Source: Sipunculus nudus
Taxonomy: Eukaryota > Annelida > Sipuncula > Golfingiida > Sipunculidae
DNA: 64,000 nt
Direction of reading: 5' to 3'
Assembly (NCBI GenBank): GCA_026874595.1
Contig: CM049318.1
Location: 48,092,456 to 48,156,455 of the forward strand
Part shown: positions 11,687-60,665 of the stretch, one piece after another
How the letters are laid out: each line of letters begins with the position of its first letter
How positions within the stretch are numbered: the first letter of the stretch is position 1
The notes under the pieces: generated by a model
Database searches by the model: none
Told to the model about the DNA's origin: nothing
Seen by the model: only the letters and a program-made list of their open reading frames with translations
Program-made: the position numbers and the translations under genes

Positions 11687-11756
11687 CTGAAGAAGACGTG
11701 TTATCATATATTTCCTGTAAGGCGATTATATTAACGAGGAAAAAACAATTATGCAT

Positions 11757-14700
11757 TTAAAGAACCAAGAGGTATACAATGAATCGATGGCAGTAAAAGA
11801 ACCAAAAGATTACAATAAACCAATGGCAGTTAAAGTACCAACAGGTATACAATGAATCGATGGCAGAAAAAGAACCAAAAGGTAACAATAAACCAATGGC
11901 AGTTAAAGAACCGACAGGTATACAAAAAATCAATGGCAGAAAAAGAGCCAAAAGGTAACAATAAACCAATGGCCGTTAAAGAACCGACAGGTATACAAAA
12001 AATCGATGGCAGAAAAAGAAACAAAGGTAACAATAAACCAATGGCAGTTAAAGAACCGACAGGTATACAAAAAATCGATGGCAGAAAAAGAGCCAAAAGG
12101 TAACAATAAACCAATGGCAGTTAAAGAACCGACAGGTATACAAAAAATCGATGGCAGAAAAAGAAACAAAGGTAACAATAAACCAATGGCAGTTAAAGAA
12201 CCGACAGGTATACAAAAAATCAATGGCAGAAAAAGAGCCAAAAGGTAACAATAAACCAATGGCCGTTAAAGAACCGACAGGTATACAAAAAATCGATGGC
12301 GGAAAAAGAAACAAAGGTAACAATAAACCAATGGCAGTTAAAGAACCGACAGGTAACAATAAACTAATGGCAGTTAAAGAACCGACAGGTATACAATAAA
12401 TCGATGGCAGAAAAAGAACCAAAGGTAACAATAAACCAATGGCCGTTAAAGAACCGACAGGTAAACAAAAAATCGATGGCAGAAAAAGAACCAAAAGGTA
12501 ACAATAAACCAATGGCAGTTAAAGAACCGACAGGTATACAAAAAATCGATGGCAGAAAAAGAACCAAAAGGTAACAATAAACCAATGACCGTTAAAGAAC
12601 CGACAGGTATACAAAAAATCGATGGCAGAAAAAGAGCCAAAAGGTAACAATAAACCAATGGCCGTTAAAGAACCGACAGGTATACAAAAAATCGATGGCA
12701 GAAAAAGAGCCAAAAGGTAACAATAAACCAATGGCCGTTAAAGAACCGACAGGTATACAAAAAATCGATGGCAGAAAAAGAAACAAAGGTAACAATAAAC
12801 CAATGGCCGTTAAAGAACCGACAGGTATACAAAAAATCGATGGCAGAAAAAGAGCCAAAAGGTAACAATAAACCAATGGCCGTTAAAGAACCGACAGGTA
12901 TACAAAAAATCGATGGCAGAAAAAGAGCCAAAAGGTAACAATAAACCAATGGCCGTTAAAGAACCGACAGGTATACAAAAAATCGATGGCAGAAAAAAGG
13001 CTAAAAGGTAACAATAAACCAATGGCCGTTAAAGAACCGACAGGTATACAAAAAATCGATGGAAGAAAAAGAACCAAAGGTAACAATAAACCAATGGCAG
13101 TTAAAGAACCGACAGGTATACAAAAAATCAATGGCAGAAAAAGAACCAAAATCTAACAATAAACCAATGGCAGTTAAAGAACCGACAGGTATACAATAAA
13201 TCGATGGCAGAAAAAGAGCCAAAAGGTAACAATAAACCAATGGCCGTTAAAGAACCGACAGGTATACAAAAAATCGATGGCAGAAAAAGAACCAAAAGGT
13301 AACAATAAACCAATGGCAGTTAAAGAACCGACAGGGATACAAAAAATCGATGGCAGAAAAAGAGCCAAAAGGTAACAATAAACCAATGGCCGTTAAAGAA
13401 CCGACAGGTATACAAAAAATCGATGGCAGAAAAAGAAACAAAGGTAACAATAAACCAAAGGCAGTTAAAGAACCGACAGGTAACAATAAACTAATGGCAG
13501 TTAAAGAACCGACAGGTATACAATAAATCGATGGCAGAAAAAGAGCCAAAAGGTAACAATAAACCAATGGCCGTTAAAGAACCGACAGGTATACAAAAAA
13601 TCGATGGCAGAAAAAGAGCCAAAAGGTAACAATAAACCAATGGCCGTTAAAGAACCGACAGGTATACAATAAATCGATGGCAGAAAAAGAACCAAAAGGT
13701 AACAATAAACTAATGGCAGTTAAAGAACCGACAGGTATACAAAAAATCAATGGCAGAAAAAGAGCCAAAAGGTAACAATAAACCAATGGCCGTTAAAGAA
13801 CCGACAGGTATACAATAAGTCGATGGCAGAAAAAGAGCAAAAAGGTAACAATAAACCAATCGCAGTTAAAGAACCGACAGGTATACAATAAATCGATGGC
13901 AGAAAAAGAGCCAAAAGGTAAAAATATACCAATGGCAGTTAAAGAACCGACAGGTATACAATAAATCGATGGCAGAAAAAGAACCAAAAGGTAACAATAA
14001 ACTAATGGCCGTTAAAGAACCGACAGGTATACAAAAAAACGATGGCAGAAAAAGAGCCAAAAGGTAACAATAAACCAATGGCAGTTAAAGAACCGACAGG
14101 TATACAAAAAATCGATGGCAGAAAAAGAGCCAAAAGGTAACAATAAACCAATGGCAGTTAAAGAACCGACAGGTATACAAAAAATCGATGGCAGAAAAAG
14201 TACCAAAAGGTAACAATAAACCAATGGCCGTTAAAGAACCGACAGGTATACAAAAAATCGATGGCAGAAAAAGAGCCAAAAGGTAACAATAAACCAATGG
14301 CCGTTAAAGAACCGACAGGTATACAAAAAATCGATGGCAGAAAAAGAGCCAAAAGGTAACAATAAACCAATGGCCGTTAAAGAACCGACAGGTATACAAA
14401 AAATCGATGGCAGAAAAAGAGCCAAAAGGTAACAATAAACCAATGGCCGTTAAAGAACCGACAGGGATACAAAAAATCAATGGCAGAAAAAGAACCAAAA
14501 GGTAACAATAAACTAATGGCAGTTAAAAAACCGACAGGGATACAAAAAATCGATGGCAGAAAAAGAACCAAAGGTAACAATAAACTAATGGCAGTTAAAG
14601 AACCGACAGGTATACAATAAATGGATGGCAGAAAAAGAACCAAAAGGTAACAATAAACCAATGGCAGTTAAAGAACCGACAGGTATACAAAAAATCGATG

Positions 14701-17700
14701 GCAGAAGAAGAGCCAAAAGGTAACAATAAACCAATGGCCGTTAAAGAACCGACAGGGATACAAAAAATCGATGGCAGAAAAAGAGCCAAAAGGTGACAAT
14801 AAACCAATGGCCGTTAAAGAACCGACAGGTATACAAAAAATCGATGGCAGAAAAAGAGCCAAAAGGTAACAATAAACCAATGGCCGTTAAAGAACCAACA
14901 GGTATACAAAAAATCGATGGCAGAAAAAGAAACAAAGGTAACAATAAACCAATGGCAGTTAAAGAACCGACAGGTATACAAAAAATCGATGGCAGAAAAA
15001 GAACCAAAAAGTAACAATAAACCAATGGCAGTTAAAGAACCGACAGGTATACACAAATCGATGGCAGAAAAAGAGCCAAAAGGTAACAATAAACAAATGG
15101 CCGTTTAAGAACCGACAGGTAACAATAAACTAATGGCAGTTAAAGAACCGACAGGTATACAATAAATCGATGGCAGAAAAAGAACCAAAAGGTTACAATA
15201 AACCAATGACCGTTAAAGAACCGACAGGTATACAAAAAATCAATGGCAGAAAAAGAACCAAAAGGTAACAATAAACCAATGGCAGTTAAAGAACCGACAG
15301 GTATACAAAAAATCGATGGCAGAAAAAGAACCAAAGGTAACAATAAACCAATGGCAGTTAAAGAACCGACAGGTATACAAAAAATCAATGGCAGAAAAAG
15401 AACCAAAAGGTAACAATAAACCAATTGCAGTTATAGAACCGACAGGTAACAATAAACTAATGGCAGTTAAAGAACCGACAGGTATACAATAAATCGCTGG
15501 CAGAAACCAGCCAAAAGGTAACAATAAACCAATGGCAGTTAAAGAACCGACAGGTATACAAAAAATCGATGGCAGAAAAAGAACCAAAAGGTAACAATAA
15601 ACCAATGGCAGTTAAAGAACCGACAGGGATACAAAAAATCGATGGCAGAAAAAGAGCCAAAAGGTAACAATAAACCAATGGCCGTTAAAGAACCGACAGG
15701 TATACAAAAAATCGATGGCAGAAAAAGAGCCAAAAGGTAAAAATAAACCAATGGCTGTTAAAGAACCGACAGGTATACAAAAAATCGATGGCAGAAAAAG
15801 AAACAAAGGTAACAATAAACCAATGGCAGTTAAAGAACCGACAGGTAACAATAAACCAATGGCAGTTAAAGAACCGACAGGTATACAATAAATCGATGGC
15901 AGAAAAAGAGCCAAAAGGTAACAATAAACCAATGGCCGTTAAAGAAGCGACAGGTATACAAAAAATTGATGGCAGAAAAAGAGCCAAAAGGTAACAATAA
16001 ACCAATGGCCGTTAAAGAACCGACAGGTATACAAAAAATCGATGGCAGAAAAAGAGCCAAAAGGTAACAATAAACCATTGGCCGTTAAAGAACCGACAGG
16101 TATACAAAAAATCGATGGCAGAAAAAGAACCAAAGGTAACAATAAACCAATGGCAGTTGAAGAACCGACAGGTATACAAAAAATCAATGGCAGAAAAAGA
16201 ACCAAAAGGTAACAATAAACAAATGGCAGTTAAAGAACCGACAGGTATACAAAAAATTGATGGCAGAAAAAGAGCCAAAAGGTAACAATAAACCAATGGC
16301 CGTTAAAGAACCGACAGGTATACAATAAATCGATGGCAGAAAAAGAGCCAAAAGGTAACAATAAACCAATGGCAGTTAAAGAACCGACAGGTATACAATA
16401 AATCGATGGCAGAAAAAGAACCAAAAGGTAACAATAAACCAATGGCCGTTAAAGGACCGACAGGTATACAAAAAATCGATGGCAGAAAAAGAGCCAAAAG
16501 GTAACAATAAACCAATGGCCGTTAAAGGACCGACAGGTATACAAAAAATCGATGGCAGAAAAAGAGCCAAAAGGTAACAATAAACCAATGGCCGTTAAAG
16601 GACCGACAGGTATACAAAAAATCGATGGCAGAAAAAGAGCCAAAAGGTAACAATAAACCAATGGCCGTTAAAGAACCGACAGGGATACAAAAAATCAATG
16701 GCAGAAAAAGAACCAAAAGGTAACAATAAACTAATGGCAGTTAAAGAACCGACAGGTATACAAAAAATCGATGGCAGAAAAAGAGCCAAAAGGTAACAAT
16801 TAACCAATGGCCGTTAAAGGACCGACAGGTATACAAAAGATCGATGGCAGAAAAAGAGCCAAAAGGTAACAATAAACCAATGGCCGTTAAAGGACCGACA
16901 GGTATACAAAAAATCGATGGCAGAAAAAGAGCCAAAAGGTAACAATAAACCAATGGCCGTTAAAGAACCGACAGGGATACAAAAAATCAATGGCAGTAAA
17001 AGAACCAAAAGGTAACAATAAACTAATGGCAGTTAAAGAACCGACAGGTATACAAAAAATCGATGGCAGAAAAAGAACCAAAGGTAACAATAAACCAATG
17101 GCAGTTAAAGAACCGACAGGTATACAAAAAATCAATGGCAGAAAAAGAACCAAAAGGTAACAATAAACCAATGGCAGTTAAAGAACCGACAGGTATACAA
17201 AAAATCGATGGCAGAAAAAGAGCCAAAAGGTAACAATAAACCAATAGCCGTTAAAGAACCGACAGGTATACAATAAATCGATGGCAGAAAAAGAGCCAAA
17301 AGGTAACAATAAACCAATGGCCGTTAAAGAACCGACAGGTATACAATAAATCGATGGCAGAAAAAGAACCAAAAGGTAACAATAAACTAATGGCAGTTAA
17401 AGAACCGACAGGTATACAAAAAATCAATGGCAGAAAAAGAGCCAAAAGGTAACAATAAACCAATGGCCGTTAAAGAACCGACAGGTATACAATAAGTCGA
17501 TGGAAGAAAAAGAGCAAAAAGGTAACAATAAACCAATCGCAGTTAAAGAACCGACAGGTATACAATAAATCGATGGCAGAAAAAGAGCCAAAAGGTAAAA
17601 ATATACCAATGGCAGTTAAAGAACCGACAGGTATACAATAAATCGATGGCAGAAAAAGAACCAAAAGGTAACAATAAACTAATGGCCGTTAAAGAACCGA

Positions 17701-18850
17701 CAGGTATACAAAAAATCGATGGCAGAAAAAGAGCCAAAAGGTAACAATAAACCAATGGCAGTTAAAGAACCGACAGGTATACAAAAAATCGATGGCAGAA
17801 AAAGAGCCAAAGGTAACAATAAACCAATGGCAGTTAAAGAACCGACAGGTATACAAAAAATCGATGGCAGAAAAAGTACCAAAAGGTAACAATAAACTAA
17901 TGGCCGTTAAAGAACCGACAGGTATACAAAAAATCGATGGCAGAAAAAGAGCCAAAAGGTAACAATAAACCAATGGCCGTTAAAGAACCGACAGGTATAC
18001 AAAAAATCGATGGCAGAAAAAGAGCCAAAAGGTAACAATAAACCAATGGCAGTTAAAGAACCGACAGGTATACAAAAAATCGATGGCAGAAAAAGAGCCA
18101 AAAGGTAACAATAAACCAATGGCCGTTAAAGAACCGACAGGGATACAAAAAATCAATGGCAGAAAAAGAACCAAAAGGTAACAATAAACTAATGGCAGTT
18201 AAAAAACCGACAGGGATACAAAAAATCGATGGCAGAAAAAGAACCAAAGGTAACAATAAACTAATGGCAGTTAAAGAACCGACAGGTATACAAAAAATCG
18301 ATGGCAGAAGAAGAGCCAAAAGGTAACAATAAACCAATGGCCGTTAAAGAACCGACAGGGATACAAAAAATCGATGGCAGAAAAAGAGCCAAAAGGTAAC
18401 AATAAACCAATGGCCGTTAAAGAACCGACAGGTATACAAAAAATCGATGGCAGAAAAAGAGCCAAAAGGTAACAATAAACCAATGGCCGTTAAAGAACCG
18501 ACAGGTATACAAAAAATCGATGGCAGAAAAAGAAACAAAGGTAACAATAAACCAATGGCAGTTAAAGAACCGACAGGTATACAAAAAATCGATGGCAGAA
18601 AAAGAACCAAAAAGTAACAATAAACCAATGGCAGTTAAAGAACCGACAGGTATACACAAATCGATTGCAGAAAAAGAGCCAAAAGGTAACAATAAACAAA
18701 TGGCCGTTTAAGAACCGACAGGTAACAATAAACTAATGGCAGTTAAAGAACCGACAGGTATACAATAAATCGATGGCAGAAAAAGAAGCAAAAGGTTACA
18801 ATAAACCAATGACCGTTAAAGAACCGACAGGTATACAAAAAATCAATGGC
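11757..18850 (+). repeat. Array domain 1: mainly 73-bp dimers
   Basis: Mostly A+B dimers at 73-bp spacing, with linked variants CCAATGGCCGTT in B and AAAAAGAGCC in A. Occasional dimers lack one A in CCAAAAGG, and occasional A-A insertions use AGGTAACAATAAACTAATGG. A block at about 13.75-14.9 kb recurs at about 17.42-18.6 kb with offsets of 3,677 then 3,603 bp, so one 73-bp dimer was lost or gained after copying. Confidence 0.85.
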
Positions 18851-21800
18851 AGAAAAAGAACCAAAAGGTAACAATAAACCAATGGCAGTTAAAGAACCGA
18901 CAGGTATACAATAAATCGATGGCAGAAAAAGAGCCAAAAGGTAACAATAAACTAATGGCAGTTAAAGAACCGACAGGTATACAAAAAATCGATGGCAGTT
19001 AAAGAACCGACAGGAATACAAAAAATCAATGGCAGAAAAAGAACCAAAAGGTAACAATAAACCAATGGCAGTTAAAGAACCAAAAGGTAACAATAAACTA
19101 ATGGCATTTAAAGAACCGACAGGTATACAAAAAATCAATGGCAGAAAAAGAACCAAAAGGTAACAATAAACCAATGGCAGTTAAAGAACCAAAAGGTAAC
19201 AATAAACTAATGGCAGTTAAAGAACCGACAGGTATACAAAAAATCAATGGCATAAAAAGAACCAAAAGGTAACAATAAACCAATGGCAGTTAAAGAACCA
19301 AAAGGTAACAATAAACAAATGGCAGTTAAAGAACCGACAGGTATACAAAAAATCGATGGCAGTTAAAGAACCGACAGGTATACAATAAATCGATGGCAGA
19401 AAAAGAACCAAAAGGTAACAATAAACAAATGGCCGTTAAAGAACCGACAGGTATACAAAAAATCGATGGCAGAAAAAGAGCCAAAAGGTAACAATAAACC
19501 AATGGCAGTTAAAGAACCAAAAGGTAACAATAAACTAATGGCAGTTAAAGAACCGACAGGTATACAATAAATCGATGGCAGAATAAGAACCAAAAGGTAA
19601 CAATAAACCAATGACCGTTAAAGCACCAAAAGGTAACAATAAACTAATGGCAGTAAAAGAACCGACAGGTATACAATAAATCGATGGCAGAAAAAGAACC
19701 AAAAGTTAACAATAAACCAATGGGAGTTAAAGGACCGACAGGTATACAATAAATCGATGGCAGAAAAAGAGCCAAAAGGTAACAATAAACCAATGACAGT
19801 TAAAGAACCAAAGGGTAACAATAAACTAATGGCAGTGAAAGAACCGACAGGTATACAAAAAATCGATGGCAGAAAAAGAAACAAAGGTAACAATAAACCA
19901 GTGGCAGTTAAAGAACCAAAAGGTAACAATAAACCAATGGCAGTTAAAGGACCGACAGGTATACAATAAATCGATGGCAGAAAAATAGCCAAAAGGTAAC
20001 GATAAACCAATGGCAGTTAAAGAACCAAAAGGTAACAATAAACTAATGGCAGTTAAAGAACCGACAGGTATACAATAAATCGATGGCAGAAAAAGAGCCA
20101 AAAGGTAACAATATACCAATGGCAGTTAAAGAACCAAAAGGTAACAATAAACCAATGGCAGTTAAAGAACCGACAGGTATACAATAAATCGATGGCAGAA
20201 AAAGAGCCAAAAGGTAACAATAAACCAATGGCAGTTAAAGAACCAAAAGGTAACAATAAACCAATGGCAGTTAAAGAACCGACAGGTATACAATAAATCG
20301 ATGGCAGAAAAAGAACCAAAAGGTAACAATAAACCAATGGCAGTTAAAGAACCAAAAGGTAACAATAAACTAATGGCAGTTAAAGAACCGACAGGTATAC
20401 AATAAATCAATGGCAGAAAAAGAGCCAAAAGGTAACAATAAACCAATGGCAGTTAAAGAACCAAAAGGTAACAATAAACCAGTGGCAGTTAAAGAACCAA
20501 AAGGTAACAATAAACCAATGGCAGTTAAAGGACCGACAGGTATACAATAAATCGATGGCAGAAAAATAGCCAAAAGGTAACGATAAACCAATGGCAGTTA
20601 AAGAACCAAAAGGTAACAATAAACTAATGGCAGTTAAAGAACCGACAGGTATACAATAAATCGATGGCAGAAAAAGAGCCAAAAGGTAACAATATACCAA
20701 TGGCAGTTAAAGAACCAAAAGGTAACAATAAACTAATGGCAGTTAAAGAACCGACAGGTATACAATAAATCGATGGCAGAAAAAGAGCCAAAAGGTAACA
20801 ATAAACCAATGGCAGTTAAAGAACCAAAAGGTAACAATAAACCAATGGCAGTTAAAGAACCGACAGGTATACAATAAATCGATGGCAGAAAAAGAACCAA
20901 AAGGTAACAATAAACCAATGGCAGTTAAAGAACCAAAAGGTAACAATAAACTAATGGCAGTTAAAGAACCGACAGGTATACAATAAATCAATGGCAGAAA
21001 AAGAGCCAAAAGGTAACAATAAACCAATGGCAGTTAAAGAACCAAAAGGTAACAATAAACTAATGGCAGTTAAAGAACCGACAGGTATACAATAAATTGA
21101 TGGCAGAAAAAGAGCGAAAAGGTAACAATAAACCAATGGCAGTTAAAGAACCAAAAGGTAACAATAAACTAATGGCAGTTAAAGAACCGACAGGTATACA
21201 ATAAATCGATGGCAGAAAAAGAACCAAAAGGTAACAATAAACTAATGGCAGTTAAAGAACCGACAGGTATACAAAAAATCGATGGCAGAAAAAGAAACAA
21301 AGGTAACAATAAACCAATGGCAGTTAAAGAACCGACAGGTAACAATAAACCAATGGCAGTTAAAGAACCGACAGGTATACAATAAATCGATGGCAGAAAA
21401 AGAGCCAAAAGGTAACAATAAACCAATGGCCGTTAAAGAACCGACAGGTATACAAAAAATTGATGGCAGAAAAAGAGCCAAAAGGTAACAATAAACCAAT
21501 GGCCGTTAAAGAACCGACAGGTATACAAAAAATCGATGGCAGAAAAAGAGCCAAAAGGTAACAATAAACCATTGGCCGTTAAAGAACCGACAGGTATACA
21601 AAAAATCGATGGCAGAAAAAGAACCAAAGGTAACAATAAACCAATGGCAGTTGAAGAACCGACAGGTATACAAAAAATCAATGGCAGAAAAAGAACCAAA
21701 AGGTAACAATAAACCAATGGCAGTTAAAGAACCGACAGGTATACAAAAAATCAATGGCAGAAAAAGAGACAAAAGGTAACAATAAACCAATGGCCGTTAA

Positions 21801-23834
21801 AGAACCGACAGGTATACAATAAATCGATGGCAGAAAAAGAGCCAAAAGGTAACAATAAACCAATGGCAGTTAAAGAACCGACAGGTATACAATAAATCGA
21901 TGGCAGAAAAAGAACCAAAAGGTAACAATAAACCAATGGCCGTTAAAGGACCGACAGGTATACAAAAAATCGATGGCAGAAAAAGAGCCAAAAGGTAACA
22001 ATAAACCAATGGCCGTTAAAGGACCGACAGGTATACAAAAAATCGATGGCAGAAAAAGAGCCAAAAGGTAACAATAAACCAATGGCCGTTAAAGGACCGA
22101 CAGGTATACAAAAAATCGATGGCAGAAAAAGAGCCAAAAGGTAACAATAAACCAATGGCCGTTAAAGAACCGACAGGGATACAAAAAATCAATGGCAGAA
22201 AAAGAACCAAAAGGTAACAATAAACTAATCGCAGTTAAAGAACCGACAGGTATACAAAAAATCGATGGCAGAAAAAGAGCCAAAAGGTAACAATTAACCA
22301 ATGGCCGTTAAAGGACCGACAGGTATACAAAAGATCGATGGCAGAAAAAGAGCCAAAAGGTAACAATAAACCAATGGCCGTTAAAGGACCGACAGGTATA
22401 CAAAAAATCGATGGCAGAAAAAGAGCCAAAAGGTAACAATAAACCAATGGCCGTTAAAGAACCGACAGGGATACAAAAAATCAATGGCAGTAAAAGAACC
22501 AAATGGTAACAATAAACTAATGGCAGTTAAAGAACCGACAGGTATACAAAAAATCGATGGCAGAAAAAGAACCAAAGGTAACAATAAACCAATGGCAGTT
22601 AAAGAACCGACAGGTATACAAAAAATCAATGGCAGAAAAAGAACCAAAAAGTAACAATAAACCAATGGCAGTTAAAGAACCGACAGGTATACAAAAAATC
22701 GATGGCAGAAAAAGAGCCAAAAGGTAACAATAAACCAATGGCCGTTAAAGAACCGACAGGTATACAATAAATCGATGGCAGAAAAAGAGCCAAAAGGTAA
22801 CAATAAACCAATGGCCGTTAAAGAACCGACAGGTATACAATAAATCGATGGCAGAAAAAGAACCAAAAGGTAACAATAAACTAATGGCAGTTAAAGAACC
22901 GACAGGTATACAAAAAATCAATGGCAGAAAAAGAGCCAAAAGGTAACAATAAACCAATGGCCGTTAAAGAACCGACAGGTATACAATAAGTCGATGGCAG
23001 AAAAAGAGCAAAAAGGTAACAATAAACCAATCGCAGTTAAAGAACCGACAGGTATACAATAAATCGATGGCAGAAAAAGAGCCAAAAGGTAAAAATATAC
23101 CAATGGCAGTTAAAGAACCGACAGGTATACAATAAATCGATGGCAGAAAAAGAACCAAAAGGTAACAATAAACTAATGGCCGTTAAAGAACCGACAGGTA
23201 TACAAAAAATCAATGGCAGAAAAAGAACCAAAAGGTAACAATAAACCAATGGCAGTTAAAGAACCGACAGGTATACAAAAATCGATGGCAGAAAAAGAAC
23301 CAAAGGTAACAATAAACCAATGGCAGTTAAAGAACCGACAAGTAACAATAAACTAATGGCAGTGAAAGAACCGACAGGTATACAATAAATCGATGGCAGA
23401 AAAAGAACCAAAAGGTAACAATAAACAAATGGCCGTTAAAGAACTGACAGGTATACAAAAAATCGATGGCAGAAAAAGAGCCAAAAGGTAACAATAAACC
23501 AATGGCAGTTAAAGAACCGACAGGGATACAAAAAATCAATGGCAGAAAAAGAACCAAAAGGTAACAATAAACTAATGGCAGTTAAAGAACCGACAGGTAT
23601 ACAAAAAATCGATGGCAGAAAAAGAGCCAAAAGGTAACAATTAACCAATGGGCGTTAAAGGACCGACAGGTGTACAAAAGATCGATGGCAGAAAAAGAGC
23701 CAAAAGGTAACAATAAACCAATGGCCGTTAAAGGACCGACAGGTATACAAAAAATCGATGGCAGAGAAAGAGCCAAAAGGTAACAATAAACCAATGGCCG
23801 TTAAAGAACCGACAGGGATACAAAAAATCAATGG
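18850..23834 (+). repeat. 5-kb block, copy 1 (4,985-bp period)
   Basis: Starts with 109-bp trimers (about 18.96-21.24 kb, A+A+B with CTAATGG before B) and then switches to 73-bp dimers (21.24-23.5 kb). The whole block repeats at +4,985 bp with only scattered differences, for example AGCCAAAAGG against AGCCGAAAGG at about 19,770 and 24,755. The dimer half is itself a copy of 15.76-17.7 kb at +5,494 bp. Confidence 0.8.
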
Positions 23835-39055: not shown

Positions 39056-39059
39056 AATG

Positions 39060-45500: not shown

Positions 45501-47095
45501 ACCGACAGGTATACAAAAAATCAATGGCAGAAAAAGAACCAAAAGGTAACAATAAACCAATGGCAGTTAAAGAACCGACAGGTATACAAAGAATCGATGG
45601 CAGAAAAAGAGCCAAAAGGTAACAATAAACTAATGGCAGTTAAAGAACCGACAGGTATACAATAAATCGATGGCAGAAAAAGAGCCAAAAGGTAACAATA
45701 AACTAATGGCAGTTAAAGAACCGACAGGTATACAAAAAATTGATGGCAGTTAAAGAACCGACAGGTATACAAAAAATCAATGGCAGAAAAAGAACCAAAA
45801 GGTAACAATAAACCAATGGCAGTTAAAGAACCGACAGGTATACAAAAATCGATGGCAGAAAAAGAACCAAAGGTAACAATAAACCAATGGCAGTTAAAGA
45901 ACCGACAGGTAACAATAAACTAATGGCAGTTAAAGAACCGACAGGTATACAATAAATCGATGGCAGAAAAAGAACCAAAAGGTAACAATAAACCAATGGC
46001 AGTTAAAGAACCAAAAGGTAACAATAAACTAATGGCAGTTAAAGAACCGACAGGTATACAATAAATCGATGGCAGAAAAAGAAACAAAGGTAACAATAAA
46101 CCAATGGCAGTTAAAGAACCAAAAGGTAACAATAAACCAATGGCAATTAAAGGACCGACAGGTATACTATAAATCGATGGCAGAAAAAGAGCCAAAAGGT
46201 AACAATAAACCAATGGCAGTTAAAGAACCAAAAGGTAACAATAAACTAATGGCAGTTAAAGAAACGACAGGTATTCAATAAATCGATGGCAGAAAAAGAG
46301 CCAAAAGGTAACAATAAACCAATGGCAGTTAAAGAACCAAAAGGTAACAATAAACTAATGGCAGTTAAAGAACCGACAGGTATACAAAAATCGATGGCAG
46401 AAAAAGAGCCAAAAGGTAACAATAAACAAATGGCCATTAAAGAACCGACAGGTATACAAAAAATCGATGGCAGAAAAAGAGCCAAAAGGTAACAATAAAC
46501 CAATGGCAGATAAAGAACCAAAAGGTAACAATAAACTAATGGCAGTTAAAGAACCGACAGGTAACAATAAACTAATGGCAGTTAAAGAACCGACAGGTAT
46601 ACAATAAATCGATGGCAGAAAAAGAACCAAAAGGTAACAATAAACCAATGGCAGTTAAAGAACCAAAAGGTAACAATAAACTAATGGCAGTTAAAGAACC
46701 AAAAGGTAACAATAAACTAATGGCAGTTAAAGAACCGACAGGTATACAATAAATCGATGGCAGAAAAAGAACCAAAAGGTAACAATAAACTAATGGCAGT
46801 TAAAGAACCAAAAGGTAACAATAAACTAATGGCAGTTAAAGAACCAAAAGGTAACAATAAACTACTGGCAGTTAAAGAACCGACAGGTATACAATAAATC
46901 GATGGCAGAAAAAGAACCAAAAGGTAACAATAAACTAATGGCAGTTAAAGAACCGACAGGTATACAAAAAATCAATGGCAGAAAAAGAACCAAAAGGTAA
47001 CAATAAACCAATGGCAGTTAAAGAACCGACAGGTATACAAAAAATCAATGGCAGAAAAAGAACCAAAAGGTAACAATAAACCAATGGCAGTTAAA
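45501..47095 (+). repeat. Trimer and tetramer domain
   Basis: Interspersed 109-bp and 145-bp units, for example at 46,572-46,920 where three 36-mers precede each 37-mer. No kilobase-scale duplication is obvious here, apart from similarity to 41.4-41.8 kb. Confidence 0.6.
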
Positions 47096-50000
47096 GAACC
47101 GACAGGTATACAAAAAATCAATGGCAGAAAAAGAACCAAAAGGTAACAATAAACCAATGGCCGTTAAAGAACCGACAGGTATACAAAAAATCGATGGCAG
47201 AAAAAGAAACAAAGGTAACAATAAACCAATGGCAGTTAAAGAACCGACAGGTATACAAAAAAATCGATGGCAGAAAAAGAACCAAAAAGTAACAATAAAC
47301 TAATGGCAGTTAAAGAACCGACAGGTATACACAAATCGATGGCAGAAAAAGAGCCAAAAGGTAACAATAAACAAATGGCCGTTTGAGAAACGACAGGTAA
47401 CAATAAACTAATGGCAGTTAAAGAACCGACAGGTATACAATAAATCGATGACAGAAAAAGAGCCAAAAGGTAACAATAAACCAATGGCAGTTAAAGAACC
47501 AAAAGGTAACAATAAACCAATGGCCGTTAAAGAACCGACAGGTATACAATAAATCGATGGCAGAAAAAGAACCAAAAGGTTACAATAAACTAATGGCAGT
47601 TAAAGAACCAAAAGGTAACAATAAACCAATGACCGTTAAAGAACCGACAGGTATACAAAAAATCAATGGCAGAAAAAGAACCAAAAGGTAACAATAAACC
47701 AATGGCCGTTAAAGAACCGACAGGTATACAATAAATCGATGGCAGAAAAAGAGCCAAAAGGTAACAATAAACCAATGGCAGTTAAAGAACCAAAAGGTAA
47801 CAATAAACTAATGGCAGTTAAAGAACCGACAGGTATACAATAAATTGATGGCAGAAAAAGAGCCAAAAGGTAACAATAAACCAATGGCAGTTAAAGAACC
47901 AAAAGGTGACAATAAACTAATGGCAGTTAAAGAACCGACAGGTATACAATAAATCGATGGCAGAAAAAGAACCAAAAGGTAACAATAAACTAATGGCAGT
48001 TAAAGAACCGACAGGTATACAAAAAATCAATGGCAGAAAAAGAACCAAAAGGTAACAATAAACCAATGGCAGTTAAAGAACCGACAGGTATACAAAAATC
48101 GATGGCAGAAAAAGAGCCAAAAGGTAACAATAAACAAATGGCCGTTAAAGAACCGACAGGTATACAAAAAATCGATGGCAGAAAAAGAGCCAAAAGGTAA
48201 CAATAAACCAATGGCAGTTAAAGAACCAAAAGGTAACAATAAACTAATGGCAGTTAAAGAACCGACAGGTAACAATAAACTAATGGCAGTTAAAGAACCG
48301 ACAGGTATACAATAAATCGATGGCAGAAAAAGAACCAAAAGGTAACAATAAACCAATGGCAGTTAAAGAACCAAAAGGTAACAATAAACTAATGGCAGTT
48401 AAAGAACCAAAAGGTAACAATAAACTAATGGCAGTTAAAGAACCGACAGGTATACAATAAATCGATGGCAGAAAAAGAACCAAAAGGTAACAATAAACCA
48501 ATGGCAGTTAAAGAACCAAAAGGTAACAATAAACCAATGGCAATTAAAGGACCGACAGGTATACAATAAATCGATGGCAGAAAAAGAGCCAAAAGGTAAC
48601 AATAAACCAATGGCAGTTAAAGAACCAAAAGGTAACAATAAACCAATGGCCGTTAAAGAACCGACAGGTATACAATAAATCGATGGCAGAAAAAGAACCA
48701 AAAGGTTACAATAAACTAATGGCAGTTAAAGAACCAAAAGGTAACAATAAACCAATGGCCGTTAAAGAACCGACAGGTATAGAAAAAATCGAGGGCAGAA
48801 AAAGAGCCAAAAGGTAACAATAAACCAATGGCAGTTAAAGAACCAAAAGGTAACAATAAACCAATGGCCGTTAAAGAACCGACAGGTATACAATAAATCG
48901 ATGGCAGAAAAAGAACCAAAAGGTTACAATAAACTAATGGCAGTTAAAGAACCAAAAGGTAACAATAAACCAATGGCCGTTAAAGAACCGACAGGTATAG
49001 AAAAAATCGAGGGCAGAAAAAGAGCCAAAAGGTAACAATAAACCAATGGCAGTTAAAGAACCGACAGGTATATAAAAAATCGATGGCAGAAAAAGAGCCA
49101 AAAGGTAACAATAAACCAATGGCCGTTAAAGAACCGACAGGTATACAAAAAATCGATGGCAGAAAAAGAGCCAAAAGGTAACAATAAACTAATGGCAGTT
49201 AAAGAACCAAAAGGTAACAATAAACTAATGGCAGTTAAAGAACCGACAGGTATACAATAAATCGATGGCAGAAAAAGAACCAAAAGGTAACAATAAACTA
49301 ATGGCAGTTAAAGAACCAAAAGGTAACTATAAACTAATGGCAGTTAAAGAACCAAAAGGTAACAATAAACTAATGGCTGTTAAAGAACCGACAGGTATAC
49401 AAAAAATCAATGGCAGAAAAAGAACCAAAAGGTAACAATAAACCAATGGCCGTTAAAGAACCGACAGGTATACAAAAAATCGATGGCAGAAAAAGAAACA
49501 AAGGTAACAATAAACCAATGGCAGTTAAAGAACCGACAGGTATACAAAAAAATCGATGGCAGAAAAAGAACCAAAAAGTAACAATAAACTAATGGCAGTT
49601 AAAGAACCGACAGGTATACACAAATCGATGGCAGAAAAAGAGCCAAAAGGTAACAATAAACAAATGGCCGTTTAAGAACCGACAGGTAACAATAAACTAA
49701 TGGCAGTTAAAGAACCGACAGGTATACAATAAATCGATGGCAGAAAAAGAGCCAAAAGGTAACAATAAACCAATGGCAGTTAAAGAACCAAAAGGTAACA
49801 ATAAACCAATGGCCGTTAAAGAACCGACAGGTATACAATAAATCGATGGCAGAAAAAGAATCAAAAGGTTACAATAAACTAATGGCAGTTAAAGAACCAA
49901 AAGGTAACAATAAACCAATGACCGTTAAAGAACCGACAGGTATACAAAAAATCAATGGCAGAAAAAGAACCAAAAGGTAACAATAAACCAATGGCCGTTA

Positions 50001-51515
50001 AAGAACCGACAGGTATACAATAAATCGATGGCAGAAAAAGAGCCAAAAGGTAACAATAAACCAATGGCAGTTAAAGAACCAAAAGGTAACAATAAACTAA
50101 TGGCAGTTAAAGAACCGACAGGTATACAATAAATTGATGGCAGAAAAAGAGCCAAAAGGTAACAATAAACCAATGGCAGTTAAAGAACCAAAAGGTGACA
50201 ATAAACTAATGGCAGTTAAAGAACCGACAGGTATACAATAAATCGATGGCAGAAAAAGAACCAAAAGGTAACAATAAACTAATGGCAGTTAAAGAACCGA
50301 CAGGTATACAAAAAATCAATGGCAGAAAAAGAACCAAAAGGTAACAATAAACCAATGGCAGTTAAAGAACCGACAGGTATACAAAAATCGATGGCAGAAA
50401 AAGAGCCAAAAGGTAACAATAAACAAATGGCCGTTAAAGAACCGACAGGTATACAAAAAATCGATGGCAGAAAAAGAGCCAAAAGGTAACAATAAACCAA
50501 TGGCAGTTAAAGAACCAAAAGGTAACAATAAACTAATGGCAGTTAAAGAACCGACAGGTAACAATAAACTAATGGCAGTTAAAGAACCGACAGGTATACA
50601 ATAAATCGATGGCAGAAAAAGAACCAAAAGGTAACAATAAACCAATGGCAGTTAAAGAACCAAAAGGTAACAATAAACTAATGGCAGTTAAAGAACCAAA
50701 AGGTAACAATAAACTAATGGCAGTTAAAGAACCGACAGGTATACAATAAATCGATGGCAGAAAAAGAACCAAAAGGTAACAATAAACCAATGGCAGTTAA
50801 AGAACCAAAAGGTAACAATAAACCAATGGCAATTAAAGGACCGACAGGTATACAATAAATCGATGGCAGAAAAAGAGCCAAAAGGTAACAATAAACCAAT
50901 GGCAGTTAAAGAACCAAAAGGTAACAATAAACCAATGGCCGTTAAAGAACCGACAGGTATACAATAAATCGATGGCAGAAAAAGAACCAAAAGGTTACAA
51001 TAAACTAATGGCAGTTAAAGAACCAAAAGGTAACAATAAACCAATGACCGTTAAAGAACCGACAGGTATACAAAAAATCAATGGCAGAAAAAGAACCAAA
51101 AGGTAACAATAAACCAATGGCCGTTAAAGAACCGACAGGTATACAATAAATCGATGGCAGAAAAAGAGCCAAAAGGTAACAATAAACCAATGGCAGTTAA
51201 AGAACCAAAAGGTATACAATAAATTGATGGCAGAAAAAGAGCCAAAAGGTAACAATAAACCAATGGCAGTTAAAGAACCAAAAGGTGACAATAAACTAAT
51301 GGCAGTTAAAGAACCGACAGGTATACAATAAATCGATGGCAGAAAAAGAACCAAAAGGTAACAATAAACTAATGGCAGTTAAAGAACCGACAGGTATACA
51401 AAAAATCAATGGCAGAAAAAGAGCCAAAAGGTAACAATAAACAAATGGCCGTTAAAGAACCGACAGGTATACAAAAAATCGATGGCAGAAAAAGAGCCAA
51501 AAGGTAACAATAAAC
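47095..51515 (+). repeat. 2,289-bp tandem duplication
   Basis: 47.1-48.77 kb recurs at +2,289 bp as 49.39-51.06 kb. The segment between (48.77-49.38 kb) carries the markers TATAGAAAAAATCGAGGGC and GGTAACTATAAACTAATGG, which become part of the 1,566-bp unit further right. It may therefore resemble the source of that unit. Confidence 0.75.
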
Positions 51516-51519
51516 CAAT

Positions 51520-54500
51520 GGCAGTTAAAGAACCAAAAGGTAACAATAAACTAATGGCAGTTAAAGAACCAAAAGGTAACAATAAACTAATGGCAGTTAA
51601 AGAACCGACAGGTATACAATAAATCGATGGCAGAAAAAGAACCAAAAGGTAACAATAAACTAATGGCAGTTAAAGAACCAAAAGGTAACTATAAACTAAT
51701 GGCAGTTAAAGAACCAAAAGGTAACAATAAACTAATGGCTGTTAAAGAACCGACAGGTATACAATAAATCGATGGCAGAAAAAGAACCAAAAGGTAACAA
51801 TAAACTAATGGCAGTTAAAGAACCGACAGGTATACAAAAAATCAATGGCAGAAAAAGAACCAAAAGGTAACAATAAACCAATGGCAATTAAAGAACCGAC
51901 AGGTATACAAAAAATCAATGGCAGAAAAAGAACCAAAAGGTAACAATAAACCAATGGCCGTTAAAGAACCGACAGGTATACAAAAAATCGATGGCAGAAA
52001 AAGAGCCAAAAGGTAACAATAAACCAACGGCCGTTAAAGGACCGAGAGGTATACAAAAAATCGATGGCAGAAAAAGAGCCAAAAGGTAACAATAAACCGA
52101 TGGCCCTTAAAGGACCGACAGGTATACAAAAAATCGATGGCAGAAAAAGAGCCAAAAGGTAACAATAAACCAATGGCCGTTAAAGGACCGACAGGTATAC
52201 AAAAAATCAATTGCAGAAAAAGAATCAAAAGGTAACAATAAACCAATGGCAGTTAAAGAACCGACAGGTATACAATAAATCGATGGCAGAAAAAGAACCA
52301 AAGGTAACAATAAACCAATGGCAGTTAAAGAACCGACAGGTATACAATAAATCGATGGCAGAAAAAGAACCAAAAGGTAACAATAAACTAATGGCAGTTA
52401 AAGAACCGACAGGTATACAATAAATCGATGGCAGAAAAAGAGCCAAAAGGTAACAATAAACCAATGGCCGTTAAAGGACCGACAGGTATACAAAAAATCG
52501 ATGGCAGAAAAAGAGCCAAAAGGTAACAATAAACCAATGGCCGTTAAAGGACCGACAGGTATACAAAAAATCGATGGCAGAAAAAGAGCCAAAAGGTAAC
52601 AATAAACCAATTGCCGTTAAAGAACCGACAGGGATACAAAAAATCGATGGCAGAAAAAGAGCCAAAAGGTAACAATAAACCAATGACCGTTAAAGAACCG
52701 ACAGGTATACAAAAAATCGATGGCAGAAAAAGAGCCAAAAGGTAACAATAAACCAATGGCCGTTAAAGAACCGACAGGTATAGAAAAAATCGAGGGCAGA
52801 AAAAGAGCCAAAAGGTAACAATAAACCAATGGCAGTTAAAGAACCGACAGGTATATAAAAAATCGATGGCAGAAAAAGAGCCAAAAGGTAACAATAAACC
52901 AATGGCCGTTAAAGAACCGACAGGTATACAAAAAATCGATGGCAGAAAAAGAGCCAAAAGGTAACAATAAACTAATGGCAGTTAAAGAACCGACAGGTAA
53001 CAATAAACTAATGGCAGTTAAAGAACCGACAGGTATACAATAAATCGATGGCAGAAAAAGAACCAAAAGGTAACAATAAACCAATGGCAGTTAAAGAACC
53101 AAAAGGTAACAATAAACTAATGGCAGTTAAAGAACCAAAAGGTAACAATAAACTAATGGCAGTTAAAGAACCGACAGGTATACAATAAATCGATGGCAGA
53201 AAAAGAACCAAAAGGTAACAATAAACTAATGGCAGTTAAAGAACCAAAAGGTAACTATAAACTAATGGCAGTTAAAGAACCAAAAGGTAACAATAAACTA
53301 ATGGCTGTTAAAGAACCGACAGGTATACAATAAATCGATGGCAGAAAAAGAACCAAAAGGTAACAATAAACTAATGGCAGTTAAAGAACCGACAGGTATA
53401 CAAAAAATCAATGGCAGAAAAAGAACCAAAAGGTAACAATAAACCAATGGCAATTAAAGAACCGACAGGTATACAAAAAATCAATGGCAGAAAAAGAACC
53501 AAAAGGTAACAATAAACCAATGGCCGTTAAAGAACCGACAGGTATACAAAAAATCGATGGCAGAAAAAGAGCCAAAAGGTAACAATAAACCAACGGCCGT
53601 TAAAGGACCGAGAGGTATACAAAAAATCGATGGCAGAAAAAGAGCCAAAAGGTAACAATAAACCGATGGCCCTTAAAGGACCGACAGGTATACAAAAAAT
53701 CGATGGCAGAAAAAGAGCCAAAAGGTAACAATAAACCAATGGCCGTTAAAGGACCGACAGGTATACAAAAAATCAATTGCAGAAAAAGAATCAAAAGGTA
53801 ACAATAAACCAATGGCAGTTAAAGAACCGACAGGTATACAATAAATCGATGGCAGAAAAAGAACCAAAGGTAACAATAAACCAATGGCAGTTAAAGAACC
53901 GACAGGTATACAATAAATCGATGGCAGAAAAAGAACCAAAAGGTAACAATAAACTAATGGCAGTTAAAGAACCGACAGGTATACAATAAATCGATGGCAG
54001 AAAAAGAGCCAAAAGGTAACAATAAACCAATGGCCGTTAAAGGACCGACAGGTATACAAAAAATCGATGGCAGAAAAAGAGCCAAAAGGTAACAATAAAC
54101 CAATGGCCGTTAAAGGACCGACAGGTATACAAAAAATCGATGGCAGAAAAAGAGCCAAAAGGTAACAATAAACCAATTGCCGTTAAAGAACCGACAGGGA
54201 TACAAAAAATCGATGGCAGAAAAAGAGCCAAAAGGTAACAATAAACCAATGACCGTTAAAGAACCGACAGGTATACAAAAAATCGATGGCAGAAAAAGAG
54301 CCAAAAGGTAACAATAAACCAATGGCCGTTAAAGAACCGACAGGTATAGAAAAAATCGAGGGCAGAAAAAGAGCCAAAAGGTAACAATAAACCAATGGCA
54401 GTTAAAGAACCGACAGGTATATAAAAAATCGATGGCAGAAAAAGAGCCAAAAGGTAACAATAAACCAATGGCCGTTAAAGAACCGACAGGTATACAAAAA

Positions 54501-57500
54501 ATCGATGGCAGAAAAAGAGCCAAAAGGTAACAATAAACTAATGGCAGTTAAAGAACCGACAGGTAACAATAAACTAATGGCAGTTAAAGAACCGACAGGT
54601 ATACAATAAATCGATGGCAGAAAAAGAACCAAAAGGTAACAATAAACCAATGGCAGTTAAAGAACCAAAAGGTAACAATAAACTAATGGCAGTTAAAGAA
54701 CCAAAAGGTAACAATAAACTAATGGCAGTTAAAGAACCGACAGGTATACAATAAATCGATGGCAGAAAAAGAACCAAAAGGTAACAATAAACTAATGGCA
54801 GTTAAAGAACCAAAAGGTAACTATAAACTAATGGCAGTTAAAGAACCAAAAGGTAACAATAAACTAATGGCTGTTAAAGAACCGACAGGTATACAATAAA
54901 TCGATGGCAGAAAAAGAACCAAAAGGTAACAATAAACTAATGGCAGTTAAAGAACCGACAGGTATACAAAAAATCAATGGCAGAAAAAGAACCAAAAGGT
55001 AACAATAAACCAATGGCAATTAAAGAACCGACAGGTATACAAAAAATCAATGGAAGAAAAAGAACCAAAAGGTAACAATAAACCAATGGCCGTTAAAGAA
55101 CCGACAGGTATACAAAAAATCGATGGCAGAAAAAGAGCCAAAAGGTAACAATAAACCAACGGCCGTTAAAGGACCGAGAGGTATACAAAAAATCGATGGC
55201 AGAAAAAGAGCCAAAAGGTAACAATAAACCGATGGCCATTAAAGGACCGACAGGTATACAAAAAATCGATGGCAGAAAAAGAGCCAAAAGGTAACAATAA
55301 ACCAATGGCCGTTAAAGGACCGACAGGTATACAAAAAATCAATTGCAGAAAAAGAATCAAAAGGTAACAATAAACCAATGGCAGTTAAAGAACCGACAGG
55401 TATACAATAAATCGATGGCAGAAAAAGAACCAAAGGTAACAATAAACCAATGGCAGTTAAAGAACCGACAGGTATACAATAAATCGATGGCAGAAAAAGA
55501 ACCAAAAGGTAACAATAAACTAATGGCAGTTAAAGAACCGACAGGTATACAATAAATCGATGGCAGAAAAAGAGCCAAAAGGTAACAATAAACCAATGGC
55601 CGTTAAAGGACCGACAGGTATACAAAAAATCGATGGCAGAAAAAGAGCCAAAAGGTAACAATAAACCAATGGCCGTTAAAGGACCGACAGGTATACAAAA
55701 AATCGATGGCAGAAAAAGAGCCAAAAGGTAACAATAAACCAATTGCCGTTAAAGAACCGACAGGGATACAAAAAATCGATGGCAGAAAAAGAGCCAAAAG
55801 GTAACAATAAACCAATGACCGTTAAAGAACCGACAGGTATACAAAAAATCGATGGCAGAAAAAGAGCCAAAAGGTAACAATAAACCAATGGCCGTTAAAG
55901 AACCGACAGGTATAGAAAAAATCGAGGGCAGAAAAAGAGCCAAAAGGTAACAATAAACCAATGGCAGTTAAAGAACCGACAGGTATATAAAAAATCGATG
56001 GCAGAAAAAGAGCCAAAAGGTAACAATAAACCAATGGCCGTTAAAGAACCGACAGGTATACAAAAAATCGATGGCAGAAAAAGAGCCAAAAGGTAACAAT
56101 AAACTAATGGCAGTTAAAGAACCGACAGGTAACAATAAACTAATGGCAGTTAAAGAACCGACAGGTATACAATAAATCGATGGCAGAAAAAGAACCAAAA
56201 GGTAACAATAAACCAATGGCAGTTAAAGAACCAAAAGGTAACAATAAACTAATGGCAGTTAAAGAACCAAAAGGTAACAATAAACTAATGGCAGTTAAAG
56301 AACCGACAGGTATACAATAAATCGATGGCAGAAAAAGAACCAAAAGGTAACAATAAACTAATGGCAGTTAAAGAACCAAAAGGTAACTATAAACTAATGG
56401 CAGTTAAAGAACCAAAAGGTAACAATAAACTAATGGCTGTTAAAGAACCGACAGGTATACAATAAATCGATGGCAGAAAAAGAACCAAAAGGTAACAATA
56501 AACTAATGGCAGTTAAAGAACCGACAGGTATACAAAAAATCAATGGCAGAAAAAGAACCAAAAGGTAACAATAAACCAATGGCAATTAAAGAACCGACAG
56601 GTATACAAAAAATCAATGGCAGAAAAAGAACCAAAAGGTAACAATAAACCAATGGCCGTTAAAGAACCGACAGGTATACAAAAAATCGATGGCAGAAAAA
56701 GAGCCAAAAGGTAACAATAAACCAACGGCCGTTAAAGGACCGAGAGGTATACAAAAAATCGATGGCAGAAAAAGAGCCAAAAGGTAACAATAAACCGATG
56801 GCCCTTAAAGGACCGACAGGTATACAAAAAATCGATGGCAGAAAAAGAGCCAAAAGGTAACAATAAACCAATGGCCGTTAAAGGACCGACAGGTATACAA
56901 AAAATCAATTGCAGAAAAAGAATCAAAAGGTAACAATAAACCAATGGCAGTTAAAGAACCGACAGGTATACAATAAATCGATGGCAGAAAAAGAACCAAA
57001 GGTAACAATAAACCAATGGCAGTTAAAGAACCGACAGGTATACAATAAATCGATGGCAGAAAAAGAACCAAAAGGTAACAATAAACTAATGGCAGTTAAA
57101 GAACCGACAGGTATACAATAAATCGATGGCAGAAAAAGAGCCAAAAGGTAACAATAAACCAATGGCCGTTAAAGGACCGACAGGTATACAAAAAATCGAT
57201 GGCAGAAAAAGAGCCAAAAGGTAACAATAAACCAATGGCCGTTAAAGGACCGACAGGTATACAAAAAATCGATGGCAGAAAAAGAGCCAAAAGGTAACAA
57301 TAAACCAATTGCCGTTAAAGAACCGACAGGGATACAAAAAATCGATGGCAGAAAAAGAGCCAAAAGGTAACAATAAACCAATGACCGTTAAAGAACCGAC
57401 AGGTATACAAAAAATCGATGGCAGAAAAAGAGCCAAAAGGTAACAATAAACCAATGGCCGTTAAAGAACCGACAGGTATAGAAAAAATCGAGGGCAGAAA

Positions 57501-59235
57501 AAGAGCCAAAAGGTAACAATAAACCAATGGCAGTTAAAGAACCGACAGGTATATAAAAAATCGATGGCAGAAAAAGAGCCAAAAGGTAACAATAAACCAA
57601 TGGCCGTTAAAGAACCGACAGGTATACAAAAAATCGATGGCAGAAAAAGAGCCAAAAGGTAACAATAAACTAATGGCAGTTAAAGAACCGACAGGTAACA
57701 ATAAACTAATGGCAGTTAAAGAACCGACAGGTATACAATAAATCGATGGCAGAAAAAGAACCAAAAGGTAACAATAAACCAATGGCAGTTAAAGAACCAA
57801 AAGGTAACAATAAACTAATGGCAGTTAAAGAACCAAAAGGTAACAATAAACTAATGGCAGTTAAAGAACCGACAGGTATACAATAAATCGATGGCAGAAA
57901 AAGAACCAAAAGGTAACAATAAACTAATGGCAGTTAAAGAACCAAAAGGTAACTATAAACTAATGGCAGTTAAAGAACCAAAAGGTAACAATAAACTAAT
58001 GGCTGTTAAAGAACCGACAGGTATACAATAAATCGATGGCAGAAAAAGAACCAAAAGGTAACAATAAACTAATGGCAGTTAAAGAACCGACAGGTATACA
58101 AAAAATCAATGGCAGAAAAAGAACCAAAAGGTAACAATAAACCAATGGCAATTAAAGAACCGACAGGTATACAAAAAATCAATGGAAGAAAAAGAACCAA
58201 AAGGTAACAATAAACCAATGGCCGTTAAAGAACCGACAGGTATACAAAAAATCGATGGCAGAAAAAGAGCCAAAAGGTAACAATAAACCAACGGCCGTTA
58301 AAGGACCGAGAGGTATACAAAAAATCGATGGCAGAAAAAGAGCCAAAAGGTAACAATAAACCGATGGCCATTAAAGGACCGACAGGTATACAAAAAATCG
58401 ATGGCAGAAAAAGAGCCAAAAGGTAACAATAAACCAATGGCCGTTAAAGGACCGACAGGTATACAAAAAATCAATTGCAGAAAAAGAATCAAAAGGTAAC
58501 AATAAACCAATGGCAGTTAAAGAACCGACAGGTATACAATAAATCGATGGCAGAAAAAGAACCAAAGGTAACAATAAACCAATGGCAGTTAAAGAACCGA
58601 CAGGTATACAATAAATCGATGGCAGAAAAAGAACCAAAAGGTAACAATAAACTAATGGCAGTTAAAGAACCGACAGGTATACAATAAATCGATGGCAGAA
58701 AAAGAGCCAAAAGGTAACAATAAACCAATGGCCGTTAAAGGACCGACAGGTATACAAAAAATCGATGGCAGAAAAAGAGCCAAAAGGTAACAATAAACCA
58801 ATGGCCGTTAAAGGACCGACAGGTATACAAAAAATCGATGGCAGAAAAAGAGCCAAAAGGTAACAATAAACCAATTGCCGTTAAAGAACCGACAGGGATA
58901 CAAAAAATCGATGGCAGAAAAAGAGCCAAAAGGTAACAATAAACCAATGACCGTTAAAGAACCGACAGGTATACAAAAAATCGATGGCAGAAAAAGAGCC
59001 AAAAGGTAACAATAAACCAATGGCCGTTAAAGAACCGACAGGTATAGAAAAAATCGAGGGCAGAAAAAGAGCCAAAAGGTAACAATAAACCAATGGCAGT
59101 TAAAGAACCGACAGGTATATAAAAAATCGATGGCAGAAAAAGAGCCAAAAGGTAACAATAAACCAATGGCCGTTAAAGAACCGACAGGTATACAAAAAAT
59201 CGATGGCAGAAAAAGAGCCAAAAGGTAACAATAAA
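51520..59235 (+). repeat. 1,566-bp higher-order repeat, ~4.9 copies
   Basis: The marker CAACGGCCGTTAAAGG sits at 52,025, 53,591, 55,157, 56,723 and 58,289, exactly 1,566 bp apart. Two variants exist. Type 1 has CCGATGGCCCTTAAAGG (copies 1, 2 and 4). Type 2 has CCGATGGCCATTAAAGG and TCAATGGAAGAAAAAG (copies 3 and 5). The order 1-1-2-1-2 implies a secondary 3,132-bp duplication of a 1-2 pair. Copies are otherwise almost identical. Confidence 0.92.
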
Positions 59236-60105
59236 CCAATGGCCGTTAAAGAACCGACAGGTATACAAAAAATCGATGGCAGAAAAAGAAACAAAGGTAA
59301 CAATAAACCAATGGCAGTTAAAGAACCGACAGGTATACAAAAAAATCGATGGCAGAAAAAGAACCAAAAAGTAACAATAAACCAATGGCAGTTAAAGAAC
59401 CGACAGGTATACACAAATCGATGGCAGAAAAAGAGCCAAAAGGTAACAATAAACAAATGGCCGTTTAAGAACCGACAGGTAACAATAAACTAATGGCAGT
59501 TAAAGAACCGACAGGTATACAATAAATCGATGGCAGAAAAAGAGCCAAAAGGTAACAATAAACCAATGGCAGTTAAAGAACCAAAAGGTAACAATAAACC
59601 AATGGCCGTTAAAGAACCGACAGGTATACAATAAATCGATGGCAGAAAAAGAACCAAAAGGTTACAATAAACCAATGACCGTTAAAGAACCGACAGGTAT
59701 ACAAAAAATCAATGGCAGAAAAAGAACCAAAAGGTAACAATAAACCAATGGCAGTTAAAGAACCGACAGGTATACAAAAATCGATGACAGTAAAAGAACC
59801 AAAGATAACAATAAACCAATGGCAGTTAAAGAACCGACAGGTATACAAAAAATCAATGGCAGAAAAAGAACCAAAAGGTAACAATAAACCAATGGCAGTT
59901 AAAGAACCGACAGGTATACAATAAATCGATGGCAGAAAAAGAACCAAAAGGTAACAATAAACCAATGGCCGTTAAAGAACCGACAGGTATACAAAAAATC
60001 GATGGCAGAAAAAGAGCCAAAAGGTAACAATAAACCAATGGCAGTTAAAGAACCAAAAGGTATACAATAAATCGATGGCAGTTAAAGAACCGACAGGTAT
60101 ACAAA
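59236..60105 (+). repeat. Right terminal part of main array
   Basis: Dimers and trimers with more private changes (GATGACAGTAAAAGAACC, AAAGATAAC at about 59,780-59,810). It ends inside a B monomer after GGTATACAAA, where the non-satellite segment begins. Confidence 0.75.
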
Positions 60106-60574: not shown

Positions 60575-60665
60575 TTACACAATATTGACATAATTTCTGG
60601 CATGTACATAGGTACCTATGGACGAATAGTTATACAAAATATTAAAGTATGAATATATCTGATTC
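60575..60665 (+). repeat. Short fragment of the 0.65-kb internal repeat
   Basis: AATATTGACATAATTTCTGG followed by CATGTACATAGG resembles TACTGACTTAATATCTGG plus CATGTACATAGG at about 62,879-62,908. It is followed in both by an AATA-rich stretch and GATGAG/GATTCA. A third, truncated copy of the repeat that is duplicated at 61.9-63.1 kb. Confidence 0.5.

Follow-up and report, generated by a model that had tools for sequence, protein, structure and literature searches.

What determines the number of short monomers per higher unit in a tandem array that fills most of this locus? The window, that is the whole stretch of 64,000 nucleotides that was analysed, had been given a first-pass annotation in which the array was spelled with two letters, A monomers of 36 bp and B monomers of 37 bp, and the varying number of A per B was taken as a length code produced by slippage plus unequal exchange. 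We find that the array is satellite DNA with higher-order repeats and that its pattern, though genuine, belongs to a type that has been familiar for a long time. Our overall reading, which we consider probable, is that of a non-coding and probably functionless satellite built from an e-B dimer (the monomer classes are defined below), with chimeras formed by out-of-register copying and larger blocks formed by unequal exchange. The satellite and the sequences at its distal end are as follows.

11751..60104, plus strand: main satellite array, monomer classes e, v, w and B, 571 B-terminated units (dynamic-programming decomposition, TRF and unit table).
60105..63272, minus strand: inserted element of 3,168 bp with HINE-like architecture, which splits a B monomer in an A/T run.
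63273..63745, plus strand: distal remnant of the satellite array, phase-exact with the cut B monomer that precedes the insert.
63748..64000, plus strand: 26-bp tandem repeat that directly adjoins the remnant and continues past the end of the window (TRF).

A dynamic-programming segmentation of positions 11751-60106 was offered six template monomers and made use of four. The 48.4-kb main array resolved into 1,330 monomers, all head-to-tail and, by both the segmentation and TRF, in a single orientation; TRF reported 11753-60104 as a single array with best periods of 73 and 109 bp. The first monomer, at 11751, is degenerate. The constant orientation earlier ascribed to a 48-kb array thus stands for 11751-60104, but the satellite does not stop there, as it continues past the insert at 63273-63745. 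Monomer lengths proved discrete rather than continuous, with 1,262 of the 1,330 at 36 or 37 bp (36 bp, 723; 37 bp, 539; 35 bp, 63; 38 bp, three; 34 bp, one; 32 bp, one). The sole 32-bp monomer is the last one, cut by the array end with the segmentation run to 60106. The proposal of two monomer lengths is therefore right in kind, but it leaks: B has 37 bp in 538/571 copies and 36 bp in 29/571, and e, the commonest A-type class, has 36 bp in 490/555 and 35 bp in 63/555. The other A-type classes, v and w, are 36 bp long throughout (169/169 and 35/35, respectively). The end of a unit is marked by the sequence of B and not by its length alone. The plus strand of 11751-60106 is 69.9% purine, a strong strand asymmetry, and between 12001 and 60000 the AT skew per 2-kb window is about 0.56–0.59. 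An origin of the 36-bp monomer from two 18-bp halves is hinted at by 18-bp rows in the TRF output, and the AA/TT/TA spectrum of the array is dominated by a signal at 18.2 bp; in a shuffle test, 15.9% of 2,000 shuffles scored equally well, which is not significant.

The single letter A does not survive decomposition, since the A monomers separate by sequence into three classes, namely e, whose place is after B, and the extras v and w, found mostly after another A. The class counts are 571 B, 555 e, 169 v and 35 w (n=1,330), and the order in which they occur is strict. The monomer directly after B, when it is an A, is e in 550/555 cases, compared to a mean of 406 and a maximum of 425 in 1,000 shuffles, and only 15 B-B steps were observed against a shuffle mean of 245 and minimum of 213 (2,000 shuffles). 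The 204 A-A steps are made up of 138 ev, 28 ew, 26 vv, seven vw, three ee and two ve. Moreover, bases 8-9 of a monomer depend on its neighbour, being AA in 545/570 monomers after B and TT in 736/759 after an A. This class order and the pattern at bases 8-9 suggest a dimer with two diverged halves, between which v and w are inserted.

Cutting after every B defined 571 units. The great majority of these are eB (384) or evB (106), followed by ewB (28), evvB (21), B alone (16) and evwB (five); rarer strings are vB (four), evvwB and eevvB (two each) and vvB, eveB and eveeB (one each). The rule that B closes a unit after one to four A is therefore the usual case and not a general one, as 16/571 units are a lone B without any A; two of these are the terminal monomers of the array, degenerate at its start and cut at its end. 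The predicted unit lengths were recovered exactly in many units, with 73 bp in 329/571, 109 bp in 107/571, 145 bp in 27/571 and 181 bp in 4/571, and 88 units are shorter by one or two bases (72 bp, 59; 108 bp, 27; 107 bp, one; 180 bp, one). Unit lengths are clustered along the array (lag-1 correlation 0.42).

The best reading takes the 73-bp e-B dimer as the basic unit and the 109-, 145- and 181-bp units as its derivatives. In comparisons of 400 random pairs each, identity was 0.755 between e and B, 0.952 between e monomers and 0.937 between B monomers. Across the whole array, ungapped identity was 0.770 at an offset of 73 bp, compared to 0.615 and 0.528 at offsets of 36 and 37 bp, respectively, so that copies one higher unit (73 bp) apart are more alike than adjacent monomers. 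Since e-B identity is low and identity at offset 73 is the highest, the dimer register is favoured.

Where, then, do the extra monomers come from? Three diagnostic sites (left, middle and right) tell e from B and define four main haplotypes. The e monomers are E/A/o in 541/555 cases and B monomers are V/G/t in 507/571; v is V/A/o in 158/169 and w is V/G/o in 35/35. Hence v has the left site of B and the middle and right sites of e, and w has the left and middle sites of B and the right site of e. Both look like chimeras in which a B-type left part is joined to an e-type right part, and from the diagnostic sites they would differ in whether the switch falls before or after the middle hexamer. 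The mirror arrangement, with an e-type left and a B-type right part, was found in one clear case and in one with an unclear left site, compared to 204 v or w. Neutral simulations with a three-site monomer and parameters of our own choosing, run as a sanity check and not as a fit, seldom gave such an outcome: none of 360 symmetric runs produced at least 5% v/w with less than 0.5% other chimeras; a further 800 runs yielded 16 with at least 5% v/w, in two of which the mirror type stayed at or below 0.2%, and 11 with at least 5% of the mirror type, in three of which v/w stayed at or below 0.2%. Since symmetric neutral simulation rarely reproduced one-sided chimerism, a bias or a founder effect is needed. 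Should all v and w descend from just one or two original events, no special cause need be invoked for the one-sidedness. It is also conceivable, but in our view unlikely, that the one-sidedness reflects a directional process, either a preferred breakpoint in the middle part that the monomers share or the loss of units with two successive 37-bp junctions; were this true, the array would grow almost solely by 36-bp steps.

These observations bear directly on replication slippage that repeats A beside itself, the source of the varying A count in the first-pass annotation. The uniform 36-bp length of all v and w and the 26 v-v steps speak for such slippage. However, e-e steps number just three of the 204 A-A steps, and the extra A carry the left part of B, so that we give this explanation only a small chance. 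Slippage in a shifted phase, running from mid-e to mid-B, and a crossover would have one and the same outcome, and unequal crossover or such shifted slippage is the simplest reading. In the origin that we propose, exchange in the dimer register would preserve the alternation of e and B, and a rare out-of-register exchange, or slippage within the dimer, would copy a 36-bp piece consisting of the right part of e and the left part of B. Duplication of this 36-bp stretch, from mid-e to mid-B, with further copying of what it yielded, may thus have created a chimeric v or w and with it e-v-B, e-v-v-B and so forth. Subsequent unequal exchange would multiply the units bearing v or w as kilobase blocks, and the HINE-like element would have split the distal end of the array afterwards. 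Of the two processes originally invoked, unequal exchange is borne out by near-exact kilobase copies, and slippage in the form of simple A repetition is not. These copies lie in three parts of the array.

51497..59236, plus strand: 1,566-bp higher-order block in tandem (exact-match runs at offsets 1566, 3132, 4698 and 6264; unit strings).
39026..45085, plus strand: tandem duplication of 3,015 bp, mismatch-free across 3,045 bp.
15751..31250 (approximate extent), plus strand: long duplicated blocks at offsets 4985, 5494, 3345, 10479 and 13824.

In the first of these, an identical string of 19 units occurs in four 1,566-bp copies starting at 52107, 53673, 55239 and 56805, and comparison at offset 1,566 from 51497 gave 47 mismatches in a fixed ungapped span of 6,264 bp. 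Within 15751-31250, six of eight sampled 1.5-kb windows have a copy that is 99.1–99.9% identical, and the best sampled windows at the offsets of 4,985, 5,494, 3,345, 10,479 and 13,824 are 99.3–99.9% identical; the two sampled windows lacking such a copy reach 92.7% (17751) and 81.5% (27751) at best. Other comparisons over fixed ungapped spans gave 247 mismatches in 4,200 bp (offset 4,985 from 19186) and 116 in 1,500 bp (offset 2,289 from 47573). Kilobase blocks at 99–100% identity in part of the array lend good support to unequal exchange. Of the 24 windows of 1.5 kb sampled along the array, 11 have another, ungapped copy of at least 99% identity. The best ungapped identity of the remaining 13 is 0.78–0.96, values which indels lower, and as these 13 are without a 99% copy, recent block copying is not array-wide.

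The exact kilobase copies could in part be assembly artefacts. If the exact blocks were assembly duplications, the dimer pattern would stand and recent expansion would be overstated. At offset 3,015 the 3,045 bp compared hold no mismatch, which is in keeping with this; however, there are also blocks of graded identity (best windows of, for example, 99.9, 99.3, 95.2 and 90.7%), and we regard assembly duplication as an unlikely source of the blocks. Unequal exchange remains our preferred explanation for them. Just 211 of the 571 units are distinct in sequence, and 152/571 are not copies, at 97% or more, of an earlier three-unit context of the same lengths; the unit-length string is therefore largely a copying history, and the idea of a length code finds no support. 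Among those 152 units, the fraction of adjacent units equal in length is 0.536 compared to 0.405 when shuffled, a value reached by 0 of 2,000 shuffles.

That the count of A per B serves as a functional code or a spacing device, for a protein or for nucleosome phasing, we consider very improbable. Unit lengths are indeed clustered non-randomly, but clustering is what block copying would bring about; AA/TT/TA periodicity near 10.4 bp is weak, at 2.6 times mean power compared to 818 times at 18.2 bp; the window has 0 CENP-B-box-like matches; and units without A and one-base changes of length occur. A protein-coding repeat is scarcely credible and was rejected, for although 36 bp would make 12 codons and many array frames have at least 90 aa, units of 73, 109, 145 and 181 bp each shift the frame by one, the longest stop-to-stop frame within the array is 156 aa and the two array frames tested had no Pfam match at E up to 0.1.

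The e-B dimer satellite may be likened to alpha satellite by organisation rather than by alignment, and in its logic it appears closest to alphoid A/B dimers. Alpha satellite has dimeric families, SF1 and SF2, according to PMC4585704, and as there two diverged monomer types alternate as a dimer, here in 384/571 units. The same paper describes a platyrrhine trimer, S4-S5-S3 of Chiropotes and Pithecia, which is said to have come from an S3-S4 dimer by unequal crossover between its two monomers, S5 being chimeric; a chimeric third monomer made by unequal crossover is the logic that we infer for e-v-B. In the S5 case, a 25-bp shift and a duplication inside the monomer are involved, which are not seen here. 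Alpha satellite monomers are 171 bp long as against 36/37 bp, and there are 0 exact matches to the CENP-B-box core on either strand of the 64 kb, so the array is not classed as alpha satellite. For mollusc satellites, PMC5874043 describes subrepeats from which unequal crossing-over and/or slippage make new higher-order units, and those of Adamussium colbecki, Donax trunculus, P. maximus and Nuttallochiton mirandus, compared by that description, resemble the present array in having subrepeats and higher-order units. In the present array, a compact example of known sequence, a dimer satellite would have given trimers and tetramers via chimeric monomers, with block duplications of several ages within a single 48 kb. 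It leaves existing knowledge of satellites unchanged and offers a ready data set on which models of satellite evolution can be tested.

Searches for relatives covered several collections. One A-type and one B-type pattern had 0 exact matches in viral and prokaryote contig collections. Strings of the satellite sequence retrieved no relative from open-licence literature, one 13-base string matching unrelated subjects only, and neither a 73 bp satellite in the bivalve literature nor 36/37-bp satellites were found in open-licence literature. Phage blastn returned three weak matches of 23–35 bp (E 1 to 4) that we judged to be chance. A structured RNA or tRNA origin was also discarded, as the window gave neither an Rfam match at the gathering threshold nor a tRNA. 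Four probe strings, allowing up to 2 mismatches, detected no satellite seeds in 1-11750, 60107-63270 or 63746-64000.

At the distal end, B is cut after 30 bp by the insert and its remaining 7 bp lie beyond 3,168 bp (30 + 7 = 37 bp). The insertion site is the T run of B (minus strand), and the ambiguity of this run masks the exact ends, leaving the insert boundaries uncertain by a few A/T. The remnant at 63273-63745 contains e, B and v together with five 42-bp monomers (63389-63671) that carry an extra AAAGAA and of which none was assigned in the main array. As far as the window shows, the insert arrived after the array and did not give rise to the satellite.

By its architecture the insert is a putative HINE-like non-autonomous Helentron (DINE-1/Pearl-like). 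The substructures listed for HINEs in PMC7492417 and PMC4067079 are a subterminal inverted repeat, an adjacent inverted repeat, a GTCC-type microsatellite and a 3' palindrome; the last three have counterparts in the insert, together with a shorter candidate for the first. On the minus strand it has an exact 10-bp subterminal inverted repeat pair, one member 2 nt from the 5' end and the other beginning 33 nt before the 3' end; a near-complementary copy next to the 5' repeat at element position 19 (9/10 complementary by eye); a GTCC-type microsatellite at element positions 53-109 by a loose pattern (TRF row ACGG, 63150-63226); and, beginning 18 nt before the 3' end, a perfect palindrome of 12 bp. 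The end-to-end score was reached by 26 of 1,000 shuffles. The 5' end forms a predicted hairpin of −12.5 kcal/mol (z −5.66), and the longer sequence at the 3' end shows no more stable a fold than its shuffles (z 0.16). There are differences from the elements of those papers: the subterminal pair is one base under the published 11–13 bp, the 3' copy of mite HINEs lies about 38–60 nt from the end, the internal repeats of Pearl are about 160 bp and thus shorter than the insert's internal segments, which repeat some 682 bp apart in degenerate form (74–88% in four segment pairs), and the satellite here lies outside the element and not between its ends. The two papers place HINEs with GTCC-type microsatellites in oysters, and such elements also in insects, mites and sea urchin; the satellite is probably that of an invertebrate, perhaps a bivalve. 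An insert end pattern had 0 exact matches in the viral contig collection, and Pfam applied to eight flank or insert frames gave two weak sub-threshold matches (E 0.025 and 0.0019).

The upstream flank holds repeats of other kinds. At 4578-6266 there is a probable foldback or terminal-inverted-repeat element, whose ends are inverted repeats (20/22 by eye) and whose inner arms, 4773-4822 and 5979-6028, are 88% complementary; it contains repeated CTCGAGATCTCGA motifs. Degenerate repeats at 9981-10904 and 6670-7202 recur at spacings of 275, 342, about 602–630 and 444 bp; they are mostly 78–86% alike, with one family at 67–73%, and GGCGCC-type motifs occur nearby.
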